Both the position numbers and the translations under genes were made by a program. A stretch of DNA of 64,000 nucleotides from Sulfurovum lithotrophicum (GTDB lineage: Bacteria > Campylobacterota > Campylobacteria > Campylobacterales > Sulfurovaceae): contig NZ_CP011308.1 in assembly GCF_000987835.1 (NCBI RefSeq), forward strand, positions 558,001 through 622,000, read 5' to 3'. This document shows positions 4,174 through 47,315 of the stretch, in pieces; positions within the stretch are counted from its first letter, which is position 1, and each line of letters starts with the position of its first letter. The notes under the pieces were generated by a model, which had not been told where the DNA came from, made no database searches, and saw only the letters and a list, made by a program, of their open reading frames with translations.

Positions 4174-4362
4174 AACCTGAGTGGTTCGACAACTGTATAT
4201 GGGGTCCAACATTAATCTTAGTGGGATATGTAGTCGGGCTGGTGTGTAGACATTTTCGTTTGAGCGGGGTAACCCGCGAGAATTTGCCTCCTAAAGGTCC
4301 GCTCTCTCCTGCACCGTTGGCTTTTTCGGGCCGACTTTGACAGAACGGCCACTCGGGTTCTT
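4174..4362 (+). ncRNA. ssrS: 6S RNA (SsrS; the 'purD RNA motif')
   Basis: A structured RNA of about 185-190 nt. Positions 4174-4184 (AACCTGAGTGG) pair over 11 bp with 4349-4359 (CCACTCGGGTT, one G-U pair), enclosing imperfect helices and a GCGGG-GTAA-CCCGC-type apical hairpin near 4264-4278. Size, long closing stem and a TATAAT immediately upstream fit 6S RNA, which binds RNA polymerase holoenzyme by mimicking an open promoter. In epsilonproteobacteria the 6S gene lies directly upstream of purD and was first catalogued as the purD motif; the same arrangement is seen here. No reading frame in it looks real. The exact 3' end is uncertain. Confidence 0.75.
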
Positions 4363-4525: not shown

Positions 4526-5794
4526 ATGGATGTATTGATCATAGGTTCTGGAGGTAGAGAGTACTCTATCGGTTTGGCGCTTAAAAAAGATGAGAAGGTA
4601 GAGAAGATCTATTTTGCACCGGGCAACGGAGCGACAGATGAGCTGGGTGAAAACCTGAATATCAGCGATTTCAATGCCTTGGCAGACTTTGTCGAAGCCA
4701 ATGGAGTGGATCTGACGATCGTGGGGCCCGAAGCACCGCTGGTCGAAGGGATCGTCGATGTATTCAAAGCCAGAGGATTGACAATATTCGGTCCTACGGC
4801 AAAGGCGGCACAGCTGGAAGGTTCTAAAATTTTCATGAAGAATTTTCTGGCACGCCACAATGTACCTACGGCCCGATATATTGAAACGAACCTGCTTGAA
4901 GAAGCATACAAGTTCATCAATACGCTTGAAGCACCTATCGTAGTTAAAGCGGACGGACTTTGCGGCGGTAAAGGGGTGATCATCGCACAAAGCCGTGATG
5001 AAGCGAAAAAAGCGGCAGGAGAAATGCTTTCAGGCAACTCCTTTGGTGAAGCGGGAACTTCCATAGTGGTCGAAGAATTCCTTGACGGGTATGAACTCTC
5101 TGTATTTGCGATCTGTGACGGGAAGGATTATGTGGTCCTGCCTGCTGCGCAGGATCATAAGAGACTGCTGAACAATGATGAAGGTCCCAATACCGGTGGT
5201 ATGGGAGCCTATGCGCCGACACCTCTTGTCAATGATGAGATCTATGCCAAACTGGATGAGCGGGTCATCAAGCCGACGCTTAAAGGGATGGAAGAAGAGG
5301 GGATGCCGTTCACGGGTGTACTTTTCATTGGTGTGATGGTGGTCAAAGGCGAGCCGATCATTCTTGAGTACAATGTACGTTTCGGTGATCCTGAATGTGA
5401 AGAGTTGATGCCATTGCTCAAGTCACCGGCCAGTGAACTCTTTTACAAAGCGGCCGTAGGTGACCTCAAGTCAGCCAAGATCGAATTTTATGACAAATAT
5501 GCCGTAGGTGTTGTCATGGCAAGCAAGGACTACCCTTACAAATCTTCAGAACCTGCCGAGATCATTGTGGACGATATACATCATCCCGATCTTGAAGGCA
5601 ATGCCCACATCTCTTATGCCGGTGTGAGCCGTGGAGAAGATGGCAAACTCTATGCGACAGGCGGACGGGTCCTGGTATGTGTGGGACTGGGTGACAGCAT
5701 TGCCGAGGCGCAGAAGCGTGCCTATATGCTGGTAGGCCAGGTCCATTTCGCCGGAAAACAGTGCCGTACCGATATTGCCTATCAGGCACTCTGA
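4526..5794 (+). CDS. purD: Phosphoribosylamine-glycine ligase
   Basis: A 422-residue ATP-grasp enzyme that joins glycine to phosphoribosylamine in step two of purine synthesis. The N-terminal GSGGREYSIGLAL, the GLCGGKGVIIA glycine-rich loop near residue 145 and the C-terminal EYNVRFGDPECE metal/ATP motif near residue 280 are all present. Length is normal for PurD. The start has CGGAG 7 bp upstream. It follows the 6S-like RNA, the conserved arrangement in this class of bacteria, and is followed eight bases later by an RDD protein. Confidence 0.96.
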   Translation: MDVLIIGSGGREYSIGLALKKDEKVEKIYFAPGNGATDELGENLNISDFNALADFVEANGVDLTIVGPEAPLVEGIVDVFKARGLTIFGPTAKAAQLEGSKIFMKNFLARHNVPTARYIETNLLEEAYKFINTLEAPIVVKADGLCGGKGVIIAQSRDEAKKAAGEMLSGNSFGEAGTSIVVEEFLDGYELSVFAICDGKDYVVLPAAQDHKRLLNNDEGPNTGGMGAYAPTPLVNDEIYAKLDERVIKPTLKGMEEEGMPFTGVLFIGVMVVKGEPIILEYNVRFGDPECEELMPLLKSPASELFYKAAVGDLKSAKIEFYDKYAVGVVMASKDYPYKSSEPAEIIVDDIHHPDLEGNAHISYAGVSRGEDGKLYATGGRVLVCVGLGDSIAEAQKRAYMLVGQVHFAGKQCRTDIAYQAL

Positions 5795-5802
5795 GAAGAA
5801 TG

Positions 5803-6255
5803 ATGGAGGAAATATCACTGCCGATCGCGGCCAACGGTAAACGTGTCTGGTCTTTTGTGATAGATGATATGGTGATCAATCTTTTTCTGATGATCATCTT
5901 CTCTTCACAGCTGACAGCTCTGATGTCAGGTGTCACTGAGGTGAATCAGGAATCTATTGTACTTGTCAACCAATTCATCATGGACAACATTGCCATTGTC
6001 CTTGCGGTCAAAGTACTTTATCATGGTGTGTTGATATGGCAGAGCGGTATGACAGTGGGTAAATATGTCATGAAGATCAAAGCTGTCGATATGCTTAGCG
6101 GTGAAACCCCTACATTGGTACAGGCGCTCTGGCGTGCGTCGGTACGTTTGATCTCCGAGATGATCTTTTATATCGGTTTTCTGTTTGCTTTTTTCTCTCC
6201 CCTGCATCAAACAATGCATGACAAGTTCTCCAACATCGTGGTGATCGATGCTTAA
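5803..6255 (+). CDS. RDD-family membrane protein
   Basis: A small inner-membrane protein of about 150 residues with an RDD domain. The defining Arg and Asp pair appears in KRVWSFVIDDMVIN near the N-terminus, followed by three hydrophobic segments with GMTVGKYVMKIKAVD between the second and third. RDD proteins are broadly distributed and some have been linked to ion transport, but the function is unknown here. An ATG at 5800 is an alternative start; 5803 gives better spacing to GAGAAG. It overlaps lptD by 8 bp, so translation is probably coupled to the LPS-assembly gene. Confidence 0.75.
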   Translation: MEEISLPIAANGKRVWSFVIDDMVINLFLMIIFSSQLTALMSGVTEVNQESIVLVNQFIMDNIAIVLAVKVLYHGVLIWQSGMTVGKYVMKIKAVDMLSGETPTLVQALWRASVRLISEMIFYIGFLFAFFSPLHQTMHDKFSNIVVIDA

Positions 6256-8338
6256 AAAGTCTCTTTCTGTCCTATTGGTATTGATGTCAATACTGTTGGC
6301 AGAAGGTGTATCGAATGATTCTCTCCACAACAAGATCGAGATTACGGCCAAACATCTTGACTCTACCAAAACGACCGTTACTGCTACCGATGGCGTGGTA
6401 GTCTATTATCAGGACTCTGTTATCAGGGCTGACAGGGCATTGTACAATAAAGAGACACAGTTGCTGAAACTTGACGGCAATATAGAGATGATCGGTTATC
6501 AGGGGACCAAAGAACATACATCACATCTTGAAATACATACCGATACAAAAGAGGTTACCTTTAAAGAGCTCTTTTTTATCAGTAAGAACGATGTGTGGCT
6601 CTTTACGCAGAAAGCGAATAAAAAAGATGGGAACTATACTTTTGGAGAGACGATACTTTCGAGTTGTGAAGTGACAAATCCTGCCTGGAAGATGGTGGCT
6701 TCACGTGCAACTTATGACAGCCGGGAAAAATATATGAGAGCCTACGATGCCAAAATGTATTTTAAGAATGTGCCGATCCTCTATACGCCCTATATGGCAT
6801 TTTCGACGGACAGACAGAGAAAGTCCGGACTGCTTTTCCCTTTTATGGGATACAGAGAAAATGAAGGATTTATTTATGAACAGCCGATCTTCTGGGCGAT
6901 TTCGGAGAGTATGGACCTTGAACTCAACCCCCAGATCCGTACCGAGAGGAGCTTCGGGATGTACGGTACCTTCCGGTTCGTAGATACTGACCACTCCTCA
7001 GGGCAGATCCGGGCAGGATATTTTCAGGACAGTGAAGCTTACAGTAAGAGGGAAAATACCAAAGAACGCGAACATTACGGTGCAGAGATACGATATGATT
7101 CAAGCAGACTGATTAGCGGTCTTGTACCCGGTGGATTCAAGGATGAACTCTATCTCAACGCGATCTACCTTAACGATATCGAATACCTGAATCTACAGCA
7201 GAGCAGTTTCAGCAATTTCGGGCAGGTACCCATTCAGGAATCGAGACTGAATTATTTTTTAGCCAATGATGAGTACTATCTGGGACTCAATGCCAAATAC
7301 TTCATTGATACCAGACTTGAGAACAATGACAAGACCATTCAGCAGCTTCCTGCCCTGCAGCTGCACCAATATCTGAACAGTCTGATCTGGGACAATCTGA
7401 CCTATTCCGTTGATATGCAATTGAAAAATTTTGACCGTATCGAAGGTTCGACCATGAAACAGGCCGAGATGAAGATACCGTTTGAATTTACAACTGCTTT
7501 TCTGGATGATTTCGTTAATCTCTCATTGGGAGAGACATTCTATTACAACAAGTCCTTCTTTGGCAATGGTGACTATGCTTACAATGATTTTCAGTTCTAT
7601 AACAATTACCATCATGCCAAAATATTTTCCGACTTGACCAAAAAATATGACAGTTTCATCCATGTGCTGCAACCCTCGATCGAATATTTTTTGCCTGGAT
7701 CCGAATCCCAGGATCCAGTTGATTTTGAGAACTTGAGCCAGGAACAGAAAGAGTTGTTTGTGCTTAGCCCCAGGGAAGAATATTATGCCTTTGCGCTTAG
7801 TCACTATTTTTATGACAAGGCTATGCACTTAAAATTTTTTCAGAGGATTTCGCAGCGTTATTATATAGACAGACCGTATAAGTATGCCGACCTGAACAAT
7901 GAAATGCAGTACAACTGGGGAAAGTGGAAGTTCTACAGTGATATTACCTATGCATGGGAGTTTAGTGAGATACGAGAGTCATCTACCCGGGTTTCACTCA
8001 ATGGGAGACGCTACAACTTTTCTTTGAGTCATACATACAAACAGAAACTTTCAGATACGCTGATCGATGTGTCAGCCAATGATATCAATCTCAATTTCGG
8101 ATACAGTTGGAATGATCACCTGCGTCTGCATGGCGGATTGACCTACGATATAGACACTTCTGAAAGTAAACAGTGGCTTTTTGGGGGACAGTACAAGCAG
8201 GACTGCTGGGGGGTGAGTGTTGCCTTGAGACAGGATATCACTCCAAGGCCGGAAGGTGAAGCGACTACGGAGAACAGTTTCTACATACAGTTTGATTTTA
8301 CCCCTTTTGTCAGTTTGGGATCAGGGAGTCTTCAGTAA
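6248..8338 (+). CDS. lptD: LPS-assembly outer-membrane protein LptD
   Basis: A 696-residue protein that inserts lipopolysaccharide into the outer leaflet of the outer membrane together with LptE. A signal peptide (about residues 1-19) is followed by an OstA/LptA-like jellyroll (ATDGVVVYYQDSVIRADRALY near 40-60) and a long beta-barrel rich in alternating aromatic residues. The barrel contains the LptD-typical RKSGLLFPFMGY near residue 190. Of the family's disulphide cysteines only CEV near residue 140 and CWG near residue 660 are evident. It overlaps the RDD gene upstream and the J-domain gene downstream (TAATG). Confidence 0.92.
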   Translation: MLKKSLSVLLVLMSILLAEGVSNDSLHNKIEITAKHLDSTKTTVTATDGVVVYYQDSVIRADRALYNKETQLLKLDGNIEMIGYQGTKEHTSHLEIHTDTKEVTFKELFFISKNDVWLFTQKANKKDGNYTFGETILSSCEVTNPAWKMVASRATYDSREKYMRAYDAKMYFKNVPILYTPYMAFSTDRQRKSGLLFPFMGYRENEGFIYEQPIFWAISESMDLELNPQIRTERSFGMYGTFRFVDTDHSSGQIRAGYFQDSEAYSKRENTKEREHYGAEIRYDSSRLISGLVPGGFKDELYLNAIYLNDIEYLNLQQSSFSNFGQVPIQESRLNYFLANDEYYLGLNAKYFIDTRLENNDKTIQQLPALQLHQYLNSLIWDNLTYSVDMQLKNFDRIEGSTMKQAEMKIPFEFTTAFLDDFVNLSLGETFYYNKSFFGNGDYAYNDFQFYNNYHHAKIFSDLTKKYDSFIHVLQPSIEYFLPGSESQDPVDFENLSQEQKELFVLSPREEYYAFALSHYFYDKAMHLKFFQRISQRYYIDRPYKYADLNNEMQYNWGKWKFYSDITYAWEFSEIRESSTRVSLNGRRYNFSLSHTYKQKLSDTLIDVSANDINLNFGYSWNDHLRLHGGLTYDIDTSESKQWLFGGQYKQDCWGVSVALRQDITPRPEGEATTENSFYIQFDFTPFVSLGSGSLQ

Positions 8339-40683: not shown

Positions 40684-40689
40684 TATAAT
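40684..40689 (+). promoter_or_regulatory. -10 box of the riboswitch operon
   Basis: TATAAT in AAGTATAATTAA. Transcription would begin near 40696, about 25 nt before the riboswitch core and 170 nt before the first gene. Confidence 0.6.
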
Positions 40690-40717
40690 TAATTAAGACA
40701 AAATTAAAGATTGTCTG

Positions 40718-40800
40718 AAAATGAAAAAGCCAAACCTGTTGTGAAGCAGGGACGGAAAGTCATGGGACTTGATAAAATTAAGTTCGCCAGATCGCCGCGT
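40718..40800 (+). promoter_or_regulatory. Cyclic-di-GMP-I (GEMM-I) riboswitch
   Basis: The segment carries the conserved GEMM-I core: AGCCAAACC (40729-40737), a P1b stem CCTGTT-GTGA-AGCAGG capped by a GNRA tetraloop (40736-40751), GGGACGGAAAGTC (40749-40761) and a second stem ACTTGA/TTAAGT (40767-40783) before GCCAGATCGCC. In known examples one helix docks the GNRA loop and c-di-GMP sits at the three-way junction. It lies in the leader of the PilJ-protein operon. Seen: motif and folding. Inferred: ligand. It was identified by eye, not by a covariance model. Confidence 0.82.
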
Positions 40801-40834
40801 AAAGTAGTATCTATACTTTTTATTACTTTATTTT
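40801..40834 (+). terminator. Possible expression platform of the riboswitch
   Basis: AAAGTA (40801-40806) can pair with TACTTT at 40814-40819 or at 40824-40829, each followed by T-rich sequence. This weak, alternative stem right after the aptamer could act as a conditional terminator. Confidence 0.4.
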
Positions 40835-40867
40835 GGTTCCTTTTTCAATACAAAAAAAGGAGTTAAA

Positions 40868-41650
40868 ATGCATAAACCTCTCCAATACTGGATAAAAATT
40901 TTTCTAATAATGTGTTTCTCAATCGGATTTTTGCATGCCATTGAGATCGCTAACCTTTCGCAGGCAGTGGATGTAGCCGGAAAACAGCGTATGTATACCC
41001 AGCGGATGCTGAAAGATTATGCAATGATAGGTTTGCAGAATAATTTCGGAAATCCAAAAGAAGATCTGACGAAGATAATGGCAAATTTTGAAAACCACCT
41101 TGACTCGCTGATCGCGTTCAACAAGGAGCCCAAAACAGAAGAGAGTCTCTTGAAAGTAAAGAAGTTGTGGGTTCCCATTAAGCAGGCACTGAATGAGCCG
41201 CCCAGCAAAGATAAGGCAGGAAAGATGCAGGAAGACCTTGAGGCACTTTTGAAGCAATCTAATGAGGCGGTCGGCCTCTTTGCCAAGCAGACAGGAAAAG
41301 AGTCGGGTGAGATCATCAATATCTCTGGCCGTCAGCGTATGCTTTCCCAGAGAATGGCGAGTCTGTACATGCTGAAAGTATGGGGTGTGAACGATCCCCA
41401 ATTCAAAAAAAAGATGGATGCATCGATGAAGCTTTTCAAAGATTCTCTTGACCGCCTTATGAAATCAGATATGAATACACCGGAGATTACGGCACTCTTG
41501 AAAAAGGCGGAAAGAGCATTCAAGTTCTTTGAGATTATGAACAGATCAAAGTCAAAATTTATTCCGGCATTGATCTACAAAAAATCCAATGAGATCCTTA
41601 AAAACATGAATACTGCTACAGGACTGTATGCTGCACAGGAAGGTAAATAG
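40868..41650 (+). CDS. Secreted double PilJ-domain protein 1
   Basis: A 260-residue exported protein. After a signal peptide (about 1-24) it has two PilJ N-terminal type sensor motifs, AGKQRMYTQRMLKDYAM near residue 37 and SGRQRMLSQRMASLYML near 152. The motif resembles the P-box of the NarX/NarQ nitrate sensors, where arginines bind the anion. Unlike PilJ or NarX, it has no transducer, kinase or membrane anchor and should be a soluble all-helical periplasmic protein. It is the first gene after the c-di-GMP riboswitch, with an AAAGGAG ribosome site. Confidence 0.82.
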   Translation: MHKPLQYWIKIFLIMCFSIGFLHAIEIANLSQAVDVAGKQRMYTQRMLKDYAMIGLQNNFGNPKEDLTKIMANFENHLDSLIAFNKEPKTEESLLKVKKLWVPIKQALNEPPSKDKAGKMQEDLEALLKQSNEAVGLFAKQTGKESGEIINISGRQRMLSQRMASLYMLKVWGVNDPQFKKKMDASMKLFKDSLDRLMKSDMNTPEITALLKKAERAFKFFEIMNRSKSKFIPALIYKKSNEILKNMNTATGLYAAQEGK

Positions 41651-41656
41651 TATATT

Positions 41657-42436
41657 ATGAATAGAATGAAAAAAAGAATAAAAAAGATAGGGATCTTTTT
41701 CCTGCTGACAGCATCATTGGCGGCAGTTGAGATTCAAAATACGGAAGATGCGGTCAATATAGCCGGCAAGCAGAGAATGTTTACCCAGCGTATGCTGAAG
41801 GATTATGCCATGGTCGGGATGGGAAATACATTCGGCACTCCCGGCAAAGATCTCCAGCAGACTATAGATGCTTTTACAGACCATCTGAAGTTGTTGAAAG
41901 CATATGCCAAAAATGATGCAATTAAAAAGAGTCTGGATGAGATAGAAGTACAGTGGAAGCCTCTTCGGAAAATACTACAGGAAACCCCAAATCTCAGCAA
42001 AGTAGAAAAGCTGCAGGGGGATTTGGAAGCACTCTTGACGGCATCGGACAAAGCAACAAAGCTGTTTGCAAAAGAGACGGGGAAAAACTCTGGTGAAATT
42101 GTCAATATGGCAGGACGTCAGCGTATGCTTTCCCAAAGAATGGCAAGTCTCTATATGCTGAAAGTGTGGGGTGTCAAAGACCCGAAATTCAAACTAAAAC
42201 TGGATGATGCATTGATGCTTTTCAAAAGCTCTTTGGAGAAGCTGGAAAAATCTCCGGTGAACAATGAAGAGATCAATGCTTTGCTGGCAAAGGTCAAGCG
42301 TTCATTCGTCTTTTTTGAAATGATGAACCGGTCAAAGTCAAAATTCGTTCCGACGCTGATCTACAAGAAGTCAAATGATATCTTGAAAAATATGAACAGT
42401 ATTACAGAACTTTATGTCAAAATTGAATCAAAATAA
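41657..42436 (+). CDS. Secreted double PilJ-domain protein 2
   Basis: A 259-residue paralogue of the preceding protein; much of the sequence is identical (QRMASLYMLKVWGV, FFEMMNRSKSKFVPTLIYKKSN). It has a signal peptide and two PilJ motifs (AGKQRMFTQRMLKDYAMVG and AGRQRMLSQRMASLYML). The strong similarity to gene 1 points to tandem duplication. It begins 6 bp after gene 1 and its end lies close to gene 3, so all are cotranscribed. No membrane segment beyond the signal peptide is visible. Confidence 0.82.
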   Translation: MNRMKKRIKKIGIFFLLTASLAAVEIQNTEDAVNIAGKQRMFTQRMLKDYAMVGMGNTFGTPGKDLQQTIDAFTDHLKLLKAYAKNDAIKKSLDEIEVQWKPLRKILQETPNLSKVEKLQGDLEALLTASDKATKLFAKETGKNSGEIVNMAGRQRMLSQRMASLYMLKVWGVKDPKFKLKLDDALMLFKSSLEKLEKSPVNNEEINALLAKVKRSFVFFEMMNRSKSKFVPTLIYKKSNDILKNMNSITELYVKIESK

Positions 42437-42449
42437 AAGGAAGATGAAG

Positions 42450-43274
42450 ATGAAAAATGTATGGATGAAAAACATAAGTATGGCGGTAGCGGCTGTTTTG
42501 ATGCTCTCGGGCAGTGTCTGTGTCGTACAGGCGGAAGAGGCACCTGCAGTGGCAACAAACAAAGCGGTGATCGCAGATATTGTCAAACTGATCGATATTG
42601 CGGGAAAACAGCGTATGCTCTCGCAAAGGATTGCAAAAGATTATCTGTATGTCGGAAAAAAGGTAGCGGTATCCAAAGCAAGCAAGCAGCAGCAGAAGTC
42701 CATTGAAGAGATGATCGCTGCGCACAAGGTGCTGGTCGACTCCATTAACGATCCTGAGATCAGAAACCTGCTCTCATTCGTTGAACTGAGTATCGAAGAT
42801 TTCAAAGCGACGGCGAATGAACCTTTCACACTTGACAATGCACAGCTGATCATCGACTTGAGCGAATCGATGCTGGAAGGTAGCCAGTATGTTGTTAATT
42901 CCCTCAAAGAGAAAGTAAAAGTGAAGGAATCGGCTATTGTTGGAAAATCAGGTAAGCAGAGAATGCTTGCACAGCGTATCGCAAAATACTATATCGCCTA
43001 TCAGGCAGGGATCAAAGATAAGAATACGGTCGATCAGATGAAAGCAGCCGTTGCAGAATTCTCGGAAGCACACAAAGCACTGATGGCAAACCCCGCCAAT
43101 ACACCGGAGATCAACAGGAAACTCAATCAGATAGATAGATTGTGGAAGATCGTCTATAAATTCTACCTCAATATTGAAAAAGGCGGACTGCCTCTGATCG
43201 TTTTCAATACCACGGATGACATTACGAAGAAAATGAATACGATCACAGCAATGTATGTCGAACTGTATAAGTAA
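42450..43274 (+). CDS. Secreted double PilJ-domain protein 3
   Basis: A 274-residue exported protein with a signal peptide ending near VVQA. Two PilJ motifs are intact: AGKQRMLSQRIAKDYLYVG and SGKQRMLAQRIAKYYIAY. It is more distant from genes 1 and 2 than they are from each other, and between the motifs it differs in sequence. I choose ATG 42450, which is 8 nt from GGA; ATG 42444 and an upstream start that overlaps gene 2 are alternatives. It probably forms a helical bundle in the periplasm. Confidence 0.8.
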   Translation: MKNVWMKNISMAVAAVLMLSGSVCVVQAEEAPAVATNKAVIADIVKLIDIAGKQRMLSQRIAKDYLYVGKKVAVSKASKQQQKSIEEMIAAHKVLVDSINDPEIRNLLSFVELSIEDFKATANEPFTLDNAQLIIDLSESMLEGSQYVVNSLKEKVKVKESAIVGKSGKQRMLAQRIAKYYIAYQAGIKDKNTVDQMKAAVAEFSEAHKALMANPANTPEINRKLNQIDRLWKIVYKFYLNIEKGGLPLIVFNTTDDITKKMNTITAMYVELYK

Positions 43275-43304
43275 GATGACTTGCAGCATCAGGAAGGATT
43301 GCAG

Positions 43305-44105
43305 ATGAAAAAGATCTTATGCATATGTCTGTTGGCAGGGAGTTTGTCCTATGCCACAACAGATATGAACAGTAGACAAAGTGTGCAGAAGAAGAGGATC
43401 GCTACAGTAACGAGAGGTGACGTCAAGATTATTGAAGCGACGGAAAATATACGTTTTTTGAGTCAACAGATCGTAAAAGAGTACCTTTTTCTGTTTGTTA
43501 CGCCTCAGAAAGAAGCAGTGAAAGCAAAAGTGAAGAAGAGGCTGGTCACACTGAGTAACAATATACGAATGATCGCGGCCACGACAAAAGATGTTGATTC
43601 AAAAGATATTCTGGAATTCCTGGCATACAGTAAAGACCAGATCGCACAGACTTTGACCGAAGAGATTACGGAAGAGAATGCGGCATTGATGCTTGACTAC
43701 AGCGAAACACTCCTGGAAGGGGCTGACTCCATTGCAGCGGCACATGCCTATGATTTCAGTAGTGAAGAGCGTATGCTGATGGCCACCAAGCAGATGGAGT
43801 ATCTGATAGAGCGTATCATGAAATACTATATGGCACTGCATGTAGGTTTTGACAATCCTACAAATCAAAACCAGATGAATAAGTCTATCGCGCAGTTTGG
43901 TAACAAGCTGCAGGATATTGAAGCCTATACCTATCCTAAAGAGATTGGTGGTGTAAAAAGCAAGATTTTGAAATCATGGTATGCGAATGGCTTTTATCTT
44001 GGAAAATCTGAAACGCTTTTCATTCCAAAGCTTATGTTGATATCGACAGCACATCTGGAAGATCTCATTGTCAAGATCGCCTTATATCATAACCAGAATC
44101 AGTAA
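43305..44105 (+). CDS. Secreted PilJ-like protein 4 (degenerate motifs)
   Basis: A 266-residue exported protein of the same size and helical pattern as genes 1-3. The PilJ positions are eroded: ATENIRFLSQQIVKEYLFLF replaces the first motif and TKQMEYLIERIMKYYMALH the second, so the AGKQRM glycine and first arginine are lost. It may have a structural or partner role in place of ligand binding. It starts at ATG 43305 (AGGAAGG upstream) and is followed 12 bp later by the hybrid kinase. Confidence 0.7.
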   Translation: MKKILCICLLAGSLSYATTDMNSRQSVQKKRIATVTRGDVKIIEATENIRFLSQQIVKEYLFLFVTPQKEAVKAKVKKRLVTLSNNIRMIAATTKDVDSKDILEFLAYSKDQIAQTLTEEITEENAALMLDYSETLLEGADSIAAAHAYDFSSEERMLMATKQMEYLIERIMKYYMALHVGFDNPTNQNQMNKSIAQFGNKLQDIEAYTYPKEIGGVKSKILKSWYANGFYLGKSETLFIPKLMLISTAHLEDLIVKIALYHNQNQ

Positions 44106-44117
44106 AGGAGAATAAGA

Positions 44118-47100
44118 ATGAATCTGTTAAACAATAAAAATATTTTTTCCTTTCTAATCGTACTGGTCCTGGTGGTTTTTGGGGCCATCTCCTACCAGAC
44201 ATATTTTGCATACAATGACTACCAAAAAGCAGAAGAGGGTAAAAAAGAAGTCCGTTTTGTCGAACTGCTTAGCCAGACAGTCGATGCCATAGCCAAAGAG
44301 CGTTTGGAGAGTGCAAACTATATGGGTAGTGGAGGTGCCGCTGCCGGCAGTGAATTGAAAGCCAGCCGTGAAATAGTGGACCATACGGTGGATGCTTTGG
44401 AAAGCTATGTCAGACAAAATACAAACCTGAAACTACATGACAAAAGAATTGTCATGGTTAAAAAGAAGCTCTCAAAGGTCAGGAACAAGATCGATACCCT
44501 GGGGTCCGACTATAAAGATATTTTTTATACCTTGTATCACCAAGAGATATTTCAACCTCTTGTCGGAGCGATCAGGATTGTTGTGGCGAGAGAAGAAGAC
44601 CCCGCCATGAAAGCGTATCTTTCCAGCTATACCGATTATTTGAATACCAGTGGTAATGTACTGCTGGAAGACAGCGGGATCCTCTATGTGCTCAATGGAA
44701 GATACCCGATGAAGGATGAGGATCTTCAAACATGGGACAGCTTGCTTTTGCATGATGCCCTACCTTCTTTGAAACAAATTCCTGATTATGACCTCATGAA
44801 GAGTCTTGCATCGATCGTTTCGGCAGATGCCTATGAGAAAATAGGGAACCCGGAGCGTATTAAAGTGCTTTACAATGCGGATACGGGAGAGTATAAAGTC
44901 ACGCCAAAAGAATGGATGAAGCAGAGTGAAAAGAAAACCGGCTATCTGACACGGGCACAGCATATTCTGTTAGGGACTGTGCAGGTCAAAGCAGAAGACC
45001 GTGGCATAGAAAGCAAAAACAGTTTGATGCAGTATGGGGCGGGAACACTTTTTGCACTTTTCGTACTTTTGGTCATGCTCATAGTCAATCACAACATCAA
45101 CAAAGACAAGCAGCTCTTTGATGATACCTTAAGAGATATAGAAGCTGTTCTGAACAAAGAGCAGCAAAAAGAGCTGCAGGAGCTTATCGACAGACATGAT
45201 GTAAACAATATCTACAGATTTCTTGTCAATACGATCCGGGAGGCCAATCAGGCAAAAGACCTTTTCCTGGCAAATATGTCTCATGAGATCCGTACACCGC
45301 TGAACGGGATCGTCGGATTTACCCAGCTGTTGAAGTCTACAAATCCTTCACCTGACCAGGAAGAGTTCATTACGGTCATCGAGAACAGTTCAGACAACCT
45401 GCTCGCGATCGTGAATGATATTTTGGATCTCTCAAAGATCAAAGCGGACAAGATCGAGCTTGAAAGCATTCCTTTCAATGCTATAGAGAAGTTTGAGTCT
45501 GCCATAGAGTCCTATGGAGCCAGAGCAGCGGAAAAAGATATTGAATTAGGTGTCTTTATAGATCCGGACCTTCCTACCCCGTTGATCGGTGACCCGACAA
45601 AAATTTCCCAGATACTTGTCAACCTTATCAGTAATGCCATCAAATTCACCAGTGCACACGGGACCATTGATGTTCGTATGGAAAAGACAGGGGAAACAGA
45701 GAAAGATGTGACTGTGAAATTCTCGGTCAAAGATACCGGTATCGGTATTACAGAAGAGCAAAAAGGTAAAATATTCGATGCCTTTTCCCAGGCGGATGTC
45801 AGTACCAGCAGAAAATTCGGCGGTACAGGCCTGGGGCTTGCCATTTCCGGAAAATTGACCGCGTTTATGGGCGGTAAACTTGATATTGACAGTAAAGAAG
45901 GAGAAGGCTCGACATTCTTTTTCTCTTTAACTCTGCCAAAAGGTGAACTTGCTTCAGTGCTGCCAAGACCAAAAATGAACGGCTTTACTGTAGCGGCGGT
46001 ACTGCCGCAGAAAGAGACAGAGAGTCTTTTGGTACGCAATCTTCATGACTATGTGGGTGCGACAGATGCAAATTTTGTGATTTACAGCAAGGATGAATTG
46101 CTCAAAGAACAGAAGAATGCAATGCCTGACCTTCTTTTCATAGACCATGCATATTGTCAGCATGGCAACGAACTTGAAAAGTATCTGGATCTTCATACAA
46201 GAACGGTACTCTTTACCACAAGTGACAAGAAAAGACAAATTGAATCACTGATGGAGAGGATCGACAAGATCGTCTATAAACCGATCAACCTTAGCAAAAC
46301 GTTCAAGGCACTTGAAGTTGTTTACAGTGAGATAAATACTGCAGACGTATCACGCCATGAAGAAGAGAGTGAAAAAGCACAGTTCAAAGGTCTTAATGTA
46401 TTGGTAGCCGAAGACAATACGATCAACCAAAAACTCGTTTTGAACATTCTGAACAAACTTGGGTTGGATGTGACGCTTGCCAACAATGGAGAAGAGGCAC
46501 TGCATCTGCGTCAGGAGAATGACTATGATATGATCTTTATGGATGTGCAGATGCCCGTGATGGGAGGGATCGAAGCGACAAAAGAGATCCTAGTATATGA
46601 AGAGAAGCACCGTAAACATCATATTCCTATTGTTGCACTGACAGCGAATGCACTGCAGGGAGACAGGGAGAAGTATATCGGCGCAGGGATGGATGACTAC
46701 CTTTCCAAACCGCTTGTACTTGAACAGTTAATACAACTGTTGAAGAAGTATTTCACAAATAAGATGGTGCTTTCCGAGAGTGAGGAAGAGCAAAGGCCCC
46801 CAGAAGAACAAGGCACGGATGAAGAAGTAGCGGCAGCATCCAAAGCAGATATAGGTAGAGAGGAAGAAACAGTTGAAACAAACAACGTGCAGGAAGAAGC
46901 AGTAGTTAAGGCTGAAGTACCTTCTGTCGAGAAAGAAGAGCTAGAGCCAGTGCAAGAAGAGATCGTTATGAAGGAAGAAATCGTCATAAAGGCTGATATA
47001 CTGTTACATCATGAAGAGCCTTTGTCATCAAAAATATATGCAACCATGCTTCGAAATCTGGGCTACAGTGTAGATATAGCGGACTCAACCATAGACTTTA

Positions 47101-47315
47101 TGGACAAAGTGGAGAACAACCAGTACCGCTTTGTACTCTTTGATGCCGATTCATTTATGCAGATACACTGCCTGATAGCCGATATCGTGCATGATGCAGG
47201 TGCAAGACCTTTCCTTTTCATTTCTGAGAAAGAGATCGGGAATATATGCTGTGAAACATTAGGTATGGAGCCTGATGTTGAGGAGATAAGGGAGAAGCTG
47301 GAAGCTTCAGTATAG
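44118..47315 (+). CDS. Hybrid histidine kinase with NIT-type periplasmic sensor
   Basis: A 1065-residue inner-membrane kinase. TM1 (about 10-30) and TM2 (about 307-328) enclose a helical periplasmic domain whose start ([15 protein letters not shown]) resembles the NIT nitrate/nitrite-sensing family. A cytoplasmic HisKA domain ([11 protein letters not shown]389), ATPase domain ([29 protein letters not shown]) and three receiver-like domains follow. Only the middle receiver ([13 protein letters not shown]809 in [14 protein letters not shown]) looks active. The first and last lack key residues. A 90-residue Glu/Val-rich linker precedes the last. It ends the riboswitch operon. Confidence 0.88.

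Follow-up and report, generated by a model that had tools for sequence, protein, structure and literature searches.

Free secreted tandem-PilJ proteins and a NIT hybrid kinase in Sulfurovum lithotrophicum: a conserved, apparently undescribed cassette behind a c-di-GMP riboswitch

Sensor kinases are usually viewed as either holding their own ligand site or borrowing a binding protein of a different fold. In TorT-TorS and XylFII-LytS a separate periplasmic protein reports the ligand to the kinase sensor, with the TorT- and XylFII-type binding proteins possessing the periplasmic-binding-protein fold. Two types of helical sensor domain are closest to the system described here, namely the NIT domain, which is built from tandem four-helix bundles and is found in NIT kinases and, fused to an ANTAR output, in NasR (structure 4AKK), and the PilJ-type domain of McpN, NarX and NarQ, which are membrane receptors with the ligand site located between two subunits. 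For McpN the arginine of the N-box was identified to contact nitrate (PMC6381276), a G-x-x-R motif is common to NarQ, NarX and, partly, NasR (PMC6381276, PMC8199190), and for NasR a pocket was predicted in helix 5 at E175/R176 (PMC7496416). The PilJ chemoreceptor of P. aeruginosa (7ZJR, 8WDF) likewise possesses tandem periplasmic PilJ bundles, but is a transmembrane protein without N-boxes which does not bind nitrate (PMC6381276). Here we describe a locus from Sulfurovum lithotrophicum, whose genome comprises 2.2 Mb in one contig and of which a stretch of 64,000 nucleotides (NZ_CP011308.1, positions 558,001 to 622,000, hereafter the window) was analysed. Within it a TATAAT element is followed by an aptamer of the class I for cyclic diguanosine monophosphate (c-di-GMP-I, also termed GEMM-I), by four genes for secreted proteins (P1, P2, P3 and P4) and by a hybrid kinase gene, the genes being separated by 6-31 bases, and truA lies directly 3' of the kinase gene on the opposite strand. 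The covariance model, the Pfam profiles and the gene coordinates thus bear out the layout given in an earlier note on this DNA, and in line with that note, which did not recognise the cassette as described, no description of this arrangement was found in the papers searched. The cassette is real and conserved. It combines known parts in an arrangement that is apparently undescribed, and it appears to be a nitrate-type two-component sensor whose receptor function has moved into free secreted copies, with control by c-di-GMP being optional.

The proteins P1, P2 and P3 each possess two PilJ stretches (PF13675 with 71.6, 78.3 and 61.4 bits, respectively, at a cut-off of 26.6), and the only PilJ matches in the genome are those of the cassette proteins. 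All four proteins start with a hydrophobic, signal-peptide-like stretch, and inspection of their sequences revealed neither a lipobox nor a second membrane helix. The view of the earlier note that four secreted PilJ-type proteins without a transducer are encoded therefore stands for P1-P3, but P4 is degenerate and stays below the cut-off (17.0 bits), while its predicted fold is like that of P1-P3; the notion of a single PilJ domain per protein had to be given up, as each of P1-P3 is a tandem repeat. P1 and P2 are closely similar to each other, and P3 is the most conserved of the four. AlphaFold models of P2 and P4 (predicted local distance difference test, pLDDT, of 94 and 91) consist of eight helices in two bundles following the signal peptide. 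Among the chains compared, the NasR NIT domain was the best full-length structural match for P2 (Z 19.1 over 230 residues at 3.5 A) and also for P4 (Z 17.3), with the latter alignment being loose (5.7 A). Matches of half length were obtained with McpN, PilJ, NarQ and NarX, each bundle of P2 being of this kind (Z 16.4 for McpN, 14.8 for NarQ and 12.8 for NarX), and McpN is the closest solved relative by sequence. Given the full-length match to NasR NIT and the half matches to PilJ-type domains, the models suggest the tandem PilJ protein to be, in fold, a free NIT-like domain. NasR carries this type of fold fused to its output and the nitrate receptors of the McpN type place it in the membrane, whereas here it is predicted to be free and secreted, with both halves residing in one soluble chain that lacks a transducer.

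The residues of P1-P3 agree with this structural assignment. Both boxes of P1, P2 and P3 contain the contact residues GxQRM, and in P2 the motif arginines, which correspond to the N-box and P-box arginine of McpN, NarX and NarQ, lie on helix 1 and helix 5. This placement agrees with the NasR pocket, whose predicted position is in helix 5. Within the genus the arginine of box 1 and box 2 is kept in 21/22 and 21/22 sequences for P1, in 18/20 and 18/20 for P2 and in 26/27 and 27/27 for P3, and in 96 homologues across several phyla the arginine of both boxes is kept at 90% or more. The strict N-box pattern (PMC6381276) is exactly matched by box 2 of P2 and box 1 of P3, and 15/20 and 25/28 of the respective relatives have one such box. 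The motifs in both halves and the NasR- and McpN-like models point to a nitrate-like anion. The corresponding positions of P4 read E-N-I-R in the first and K-x-x-E or K in the second motif, and these residues may form internal salt bridges replacing the ligand.

The hybrid kinase was found to combine a periplasmic NIT domain (PF08376 with 47.3 bits at a cut-off of 24.9), as had been assumed, with HisKA, HATPase_c and receiver domains; in the cassette kinases of some relatives the PF08376 match is lost, and a sequence search for solved relatives of the kinase sensor yielded chance matches only. Its anion motifs are changed to AKER in helix 1 and LLED in helix 5, and GxxR was found at helix 1 or helix 5 in none of 28 aligned cassette kinase sensors. 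As a control, a second NIT kinase of the same genome possesses GKER and GLER, and so do most of its relatives. Since P1-P3 keep the motif and the cassette kinase, other than the second NIT kinase, lacks GxxR, the putative ligand motif is, as judged from the sequences, located in the free proteins and absent from the adjoining kinase. The C-terminal tail of the kinase (46990-47312), which follows an acidic linker, has no Pfam match and looks like a degenerate receiver. Three Sulfurovum genomes also possess NIT domains within very long open frames, which span some 1800 to 2670 residues (L236, L237, L238).

The gene order P1-(P2)-P3-P4-kinase is kept in approximately 25 Sulfurovum loci, and the cassette also occurs in sister genera and in one other family of the order, so that conservation in other Campylobacterota, which the earlier note had set as a check, was confirmed. 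In most of the cassettes examined the chromosomal site lies between DUF2231 and truA. A viral origin was considered and rejected, as a P3 profile scan of viral contigs gave no match and the cassette occupies one chromosomal site in most relatives. At three loci outside the genus P4 is followed by a NIT sensor with a short or replaced kinase half; P4 and the NIT sensor stay together regardless and therefore are the constant pair of the cassette. Moreover, over 24 loci P4 diverges together with the kinase sensor, also when P3 and the kinase core are allowed for (partial Mantel 0.75, none of 2000 permutations being as high), the partial correlation between P3 and the kinase sensor being 0.37. In one genome (G040, L101:1325-2144) P3 extends over two frames, perhaps reflecting a decaying cassette or an assembly error.

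Immediately upstream of P1 the relatives possess a riboswitch (8/25), phosphorelay genes (four relatives) or neither. Three of the four phosphorelay sets comprise genes for a NarL-type regulator, a receiver, a FIST protein, a hybrid kinase and an HPt-type protein, and one of them also a GGDEF-EAL gene; this resembles the nitric oxide phosphorelay NosP-NahK/HPt in that FIST, hybrid kinase and HPt-type genes lie just 5' of three riboswitch-less cassettes, but the FIST proteins of these relatives score far under the NosP equivalog cut-off, and such genes do not occur in the window. Two of these loci with the HPt-type protein, the hybrid kinase, the NosP-like FIST protein, the receiver and the NarL-type regulator immediately 5' of the PilJ cassette are L112:1145-6917, where GGDEF-EAL is found, and L111:1747-6202.

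At the locus described here, the aptamer was matched by cmscan with RF03167 (62.7 bits, E 2e-12, gathering 59) and RF01051 (60.8 bits, gathering 35), with one overlapping match of the same Rfam clan also exceeding its gathering threshold. The comparison covered 21 c-di-GMP-I aptamers of the genus Sulfurovum. Positions 20, 47 and 92 (Vc2 numbering) are those which we take to be the ligand contacts, and G20 and A47 are invariant in 21/21 aptamers, the third contact, C92, being placed without certainty. The pair 22-45 covaries without exception (13 sequences with C-G, 8 with U-A). With respect to covariance model and ligand-contact positions the element hence resembles c-di-GMP-I riboswitches, from which it differs by a swapped pair, C21-G46 in place of G21-C46, and by the genes it controls, i.e., a sensor cassette. 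The class named in the earlier note was consequently confirmed by the covariance model, with the qualification that Rfam prefers the c-di-GMP-I-GGC model although residue 47 is the A of the ordinary class. This preference raised the idea of an altered ligand, which was rejected because each of the 21 aptamers has the ordinary-class nucleotides at positions 20 and 47; on these positions, we take the aptamer as an ordinary c-di-GMP sensor carrying a swapped pair. Downstream of it, a hairpin (UCCUUUUU/AAAAAGGA) covers most of the P1 Shine-Dalgarno sequence and may serve as expression platform. The identical hairpin sequence was found in L072, and no clear alternative pairing between the hairpin and the aptamer was seen in the leader fold. 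Boxes of similar kind to the TATAAT element, reading AAGTA(T/C)AAT, lie 5' of cassettes both with and without a riboswitch, and in promoter and terminator scans of the region the consensus counts did not exceed chance.

The genome contains five c-di-GMP-I aptamers and 18 GGDEF domains. The other four aptamers precede a gene pair with a DUF1501 protein among its products, a gene for a DUF1800 protein that contains Ig domains, one for a cadherin-like adhesin and one for a PAS protein, targets which fit a surface-life regulon. As the riboswitch precedes only 8/25 cassettes, control by c-di-GMP is an option taken by some lineages rather than central to the system. Of 140 listed c-di-GMP-I aptamers in genomes of the genus, 11 are followed within 4.5 kb by a same-strand NIT gene, where 0.23 were expected, and besides the PilJ cassette such riboswitches precede an operon with a PAS-HPt-NIT kinase and a NIT hybrid kinase which stands alone and comprises about 877 residues. 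The riboswitches in front of these two further kinds of NIT-kinase operon are located at L265:3795-3875, L266:3675-3754, L272:4029-4108, L267:628-702, L268:570-644, L269:635-709 and L270:5972-6046. Locus L094 carries two c-di-GMP-I riboswitches (5732-5806 and 6867-6943), of which one precedes an extra, diverged PilJ-type gene and the other P1.

With respect to the ligand, the periplasmic nitrate reductase gene napA was found in 22/25 cassette genomes as compared to 31/53 others (Fisher 0.01) and, among good genomes, in 13/15 with the cassette as compared to 13/25 others (0.04). Our first guess for the ligand is nitrate or nitrite, followed by another oxyanion.

Considering all this, the operon is suggested to encode a split anion sensor of the periplasm, the supply of which would be governed by c-di-GMP, a reading for and against which we see about equal chances. 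The suggested mechanism assumes that the two halves of each of P1-P3 would take up nitrate, nitrite or a similar oxyanion between them, that P4 would link these receptors, whether loaded or empty, with the NIT domain of the kinase, and that the kinase would relay phosphate via its own receiver to an HPt partner. Here, c-di-GMP as signal of attached life would, through the riboswitch, either increase or decrease the supply of all cassette products. As in TorT-TorS and XylFII-LytS, a separate periplasmic protein is thus proposed to report the ligand to the kinase sensor; the difference is that receptor and kinase sensor here have their fold in common, as though a single sensor had undergone duplication and division. 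More tentatively, and with considerable doubt, the origin of the system may be seen in such a duplication, whereby the ligand-binding copies became free and secreted, the kinase became ligand-blind, the blind P4 serves as coupler and the riboswitch sets the receptor supply and hence the nitrogen-oxide sensitivity of attached cells, with control of NIT-kinase operons by c-di-GMP-I riboswitches being a wider rule in the genus. If true, a single fold would be shared out among free receptors and a kinase sensor blind to the ligand, sensitivity would be tunable by receptor dose, and c-di-GMP would be linked to nitrogen-oxide sensing in nitrate-reductase-bearing bacteria.

Several observations weigh against the split sensor and its presumed ligand. 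The strict N-box pattern is present in no P1 of any relative, and in P. aeruginosa neither the tandem PilJ sensor nor the NIT sensor of PA4520 bound nitrate (PMC6381276). Furthermore, two cassette genomes with a completeness of at least 92% lack napA, which, together with the fact that nitrate binding is not universal among PilJ domains, would be in line with a split sensor for another oxyanion or small molecule, e.g., a sulfur oxyanion, as would suit a sulfur oxidiser; this alternative is considered unlikely, as the contact residues match the nitrate N-box in both halves. The napA association itself is modest and its statistics ignore phylogeny. That napA is commoner in cassette genomes would also be expected if P1-P3 buffered or carried nitrate or nitrite in the periplasm to serve the nitrate reductase located there, with the kinase being merely co-expressed, an idea that further draws on the lone tandem-PilJ genes without a kinase in many proteobacteria. 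However, P4 and the NIT sensor accompany P1-P3 even where the kinase has lost its output half or has another in its place, P4 diverges together with the kinase sensor, and no nap gene was found to adjoin the cassette in the neighbourhoods examined, and we hold the buffer or carrier function to be rather improbable. The co-divergence, in turn, may partly result from joint relaxed constraint or from exchange of the P4-kinase block. A riboswitch is missing from two thirds of the cassettes. Finally, decayed-site NIT kinases without PilJ partners occur in relatives, among them the stand-alone riboswitch kinase of about 877 residues, in which the paired motif is missing as well, and site decay alone is therefore no proof of dependence on P1-P3. 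The occurrence of such kinases alone in other species, the lacking motif pair of P4 and the close similarity of P1 and P2 could instead be explained by assuming that the free proteins are decoys or stabilisers which fix the kinase in one state regardless of ligand, so that their loss would alter basal activity only; yet both anion motifs are strongly conserved in P1-P3, in the genus and beyond, which is hard to explain without a ligand and renders this explanation very improbable.

Coordinates of the cassette features within the window
Feature	Position	Strand	Basis
TATAAT, -10 element of likely promoter	40684..40689	+	sequence; perfect TATAAT 30 bases 5' of the aptamer
c-di-GMP-I class aptamer	40720..40800	+	Rfam covariance models; covariation in 21 homologues
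Hairpin over the P1 Shine-Dalgarno sequence, possible expression platform	40838..40861	+	leader folding z -3.1
P1, secreted tandem-PilJ protein, 260 amino acids	40868..41650	+	PF13675, two stretches; GxQRM boxes 40967-41002 and 41315-41350
P2, secreted tandem-PilJ protein, 259 amino acids	41657..42436	+	PF13675; AlphaFold2 model, NasR NIT match; boxes 41753-41788 and 42101-42136
P3, secreted tandem-PilJ protein, 274 amino acids	42450..43274	+	PF13675; boxes 42591-42626 and 42939-42974
P4, secreted, 266 amino acids, fold of P1-P3 without paired anion motif	43305..44105	+	PF13675 below cut-off; AlphaFold2 model, NasR NIT match
Hybrid histidine kinase, 1065 amino acids, NIT-HisKA-HATPase_c-REC and C-terminal tail	44118..47315	+	Pfam profiles
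Kinase periplasmic NIT sensor, decayed anion motif	44277..44969	+	PF08376; motif comparison
Kinase HisKA and HATPase_c	45252..45935	+	Pfam profiles
Kinase receiver domain (REC)	46398..46742	+	Pfam profiles

Beyond the cassette, lone free tandem-PilJ genes are widespread, occurring in many Gamma- and Betaproteobacteria and in some Bacteroidota, so that free PilJ proteins are not unusual in themselves. Eight neighbourhoods of such genes from other phyla revealed no constant partner gene. The split sensor would provide a first functional guess for this family of lone secreted proteins. Single secreted tandem-PilJ genes of Gamma- and Betaproteobacteria and Bacteroidota were collected as loci L175-L232, mostly with both anion motifs present. 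Elsewhere in the window, a purD RNA motif was found at 4230-4358 (RF01069, 92 bits).

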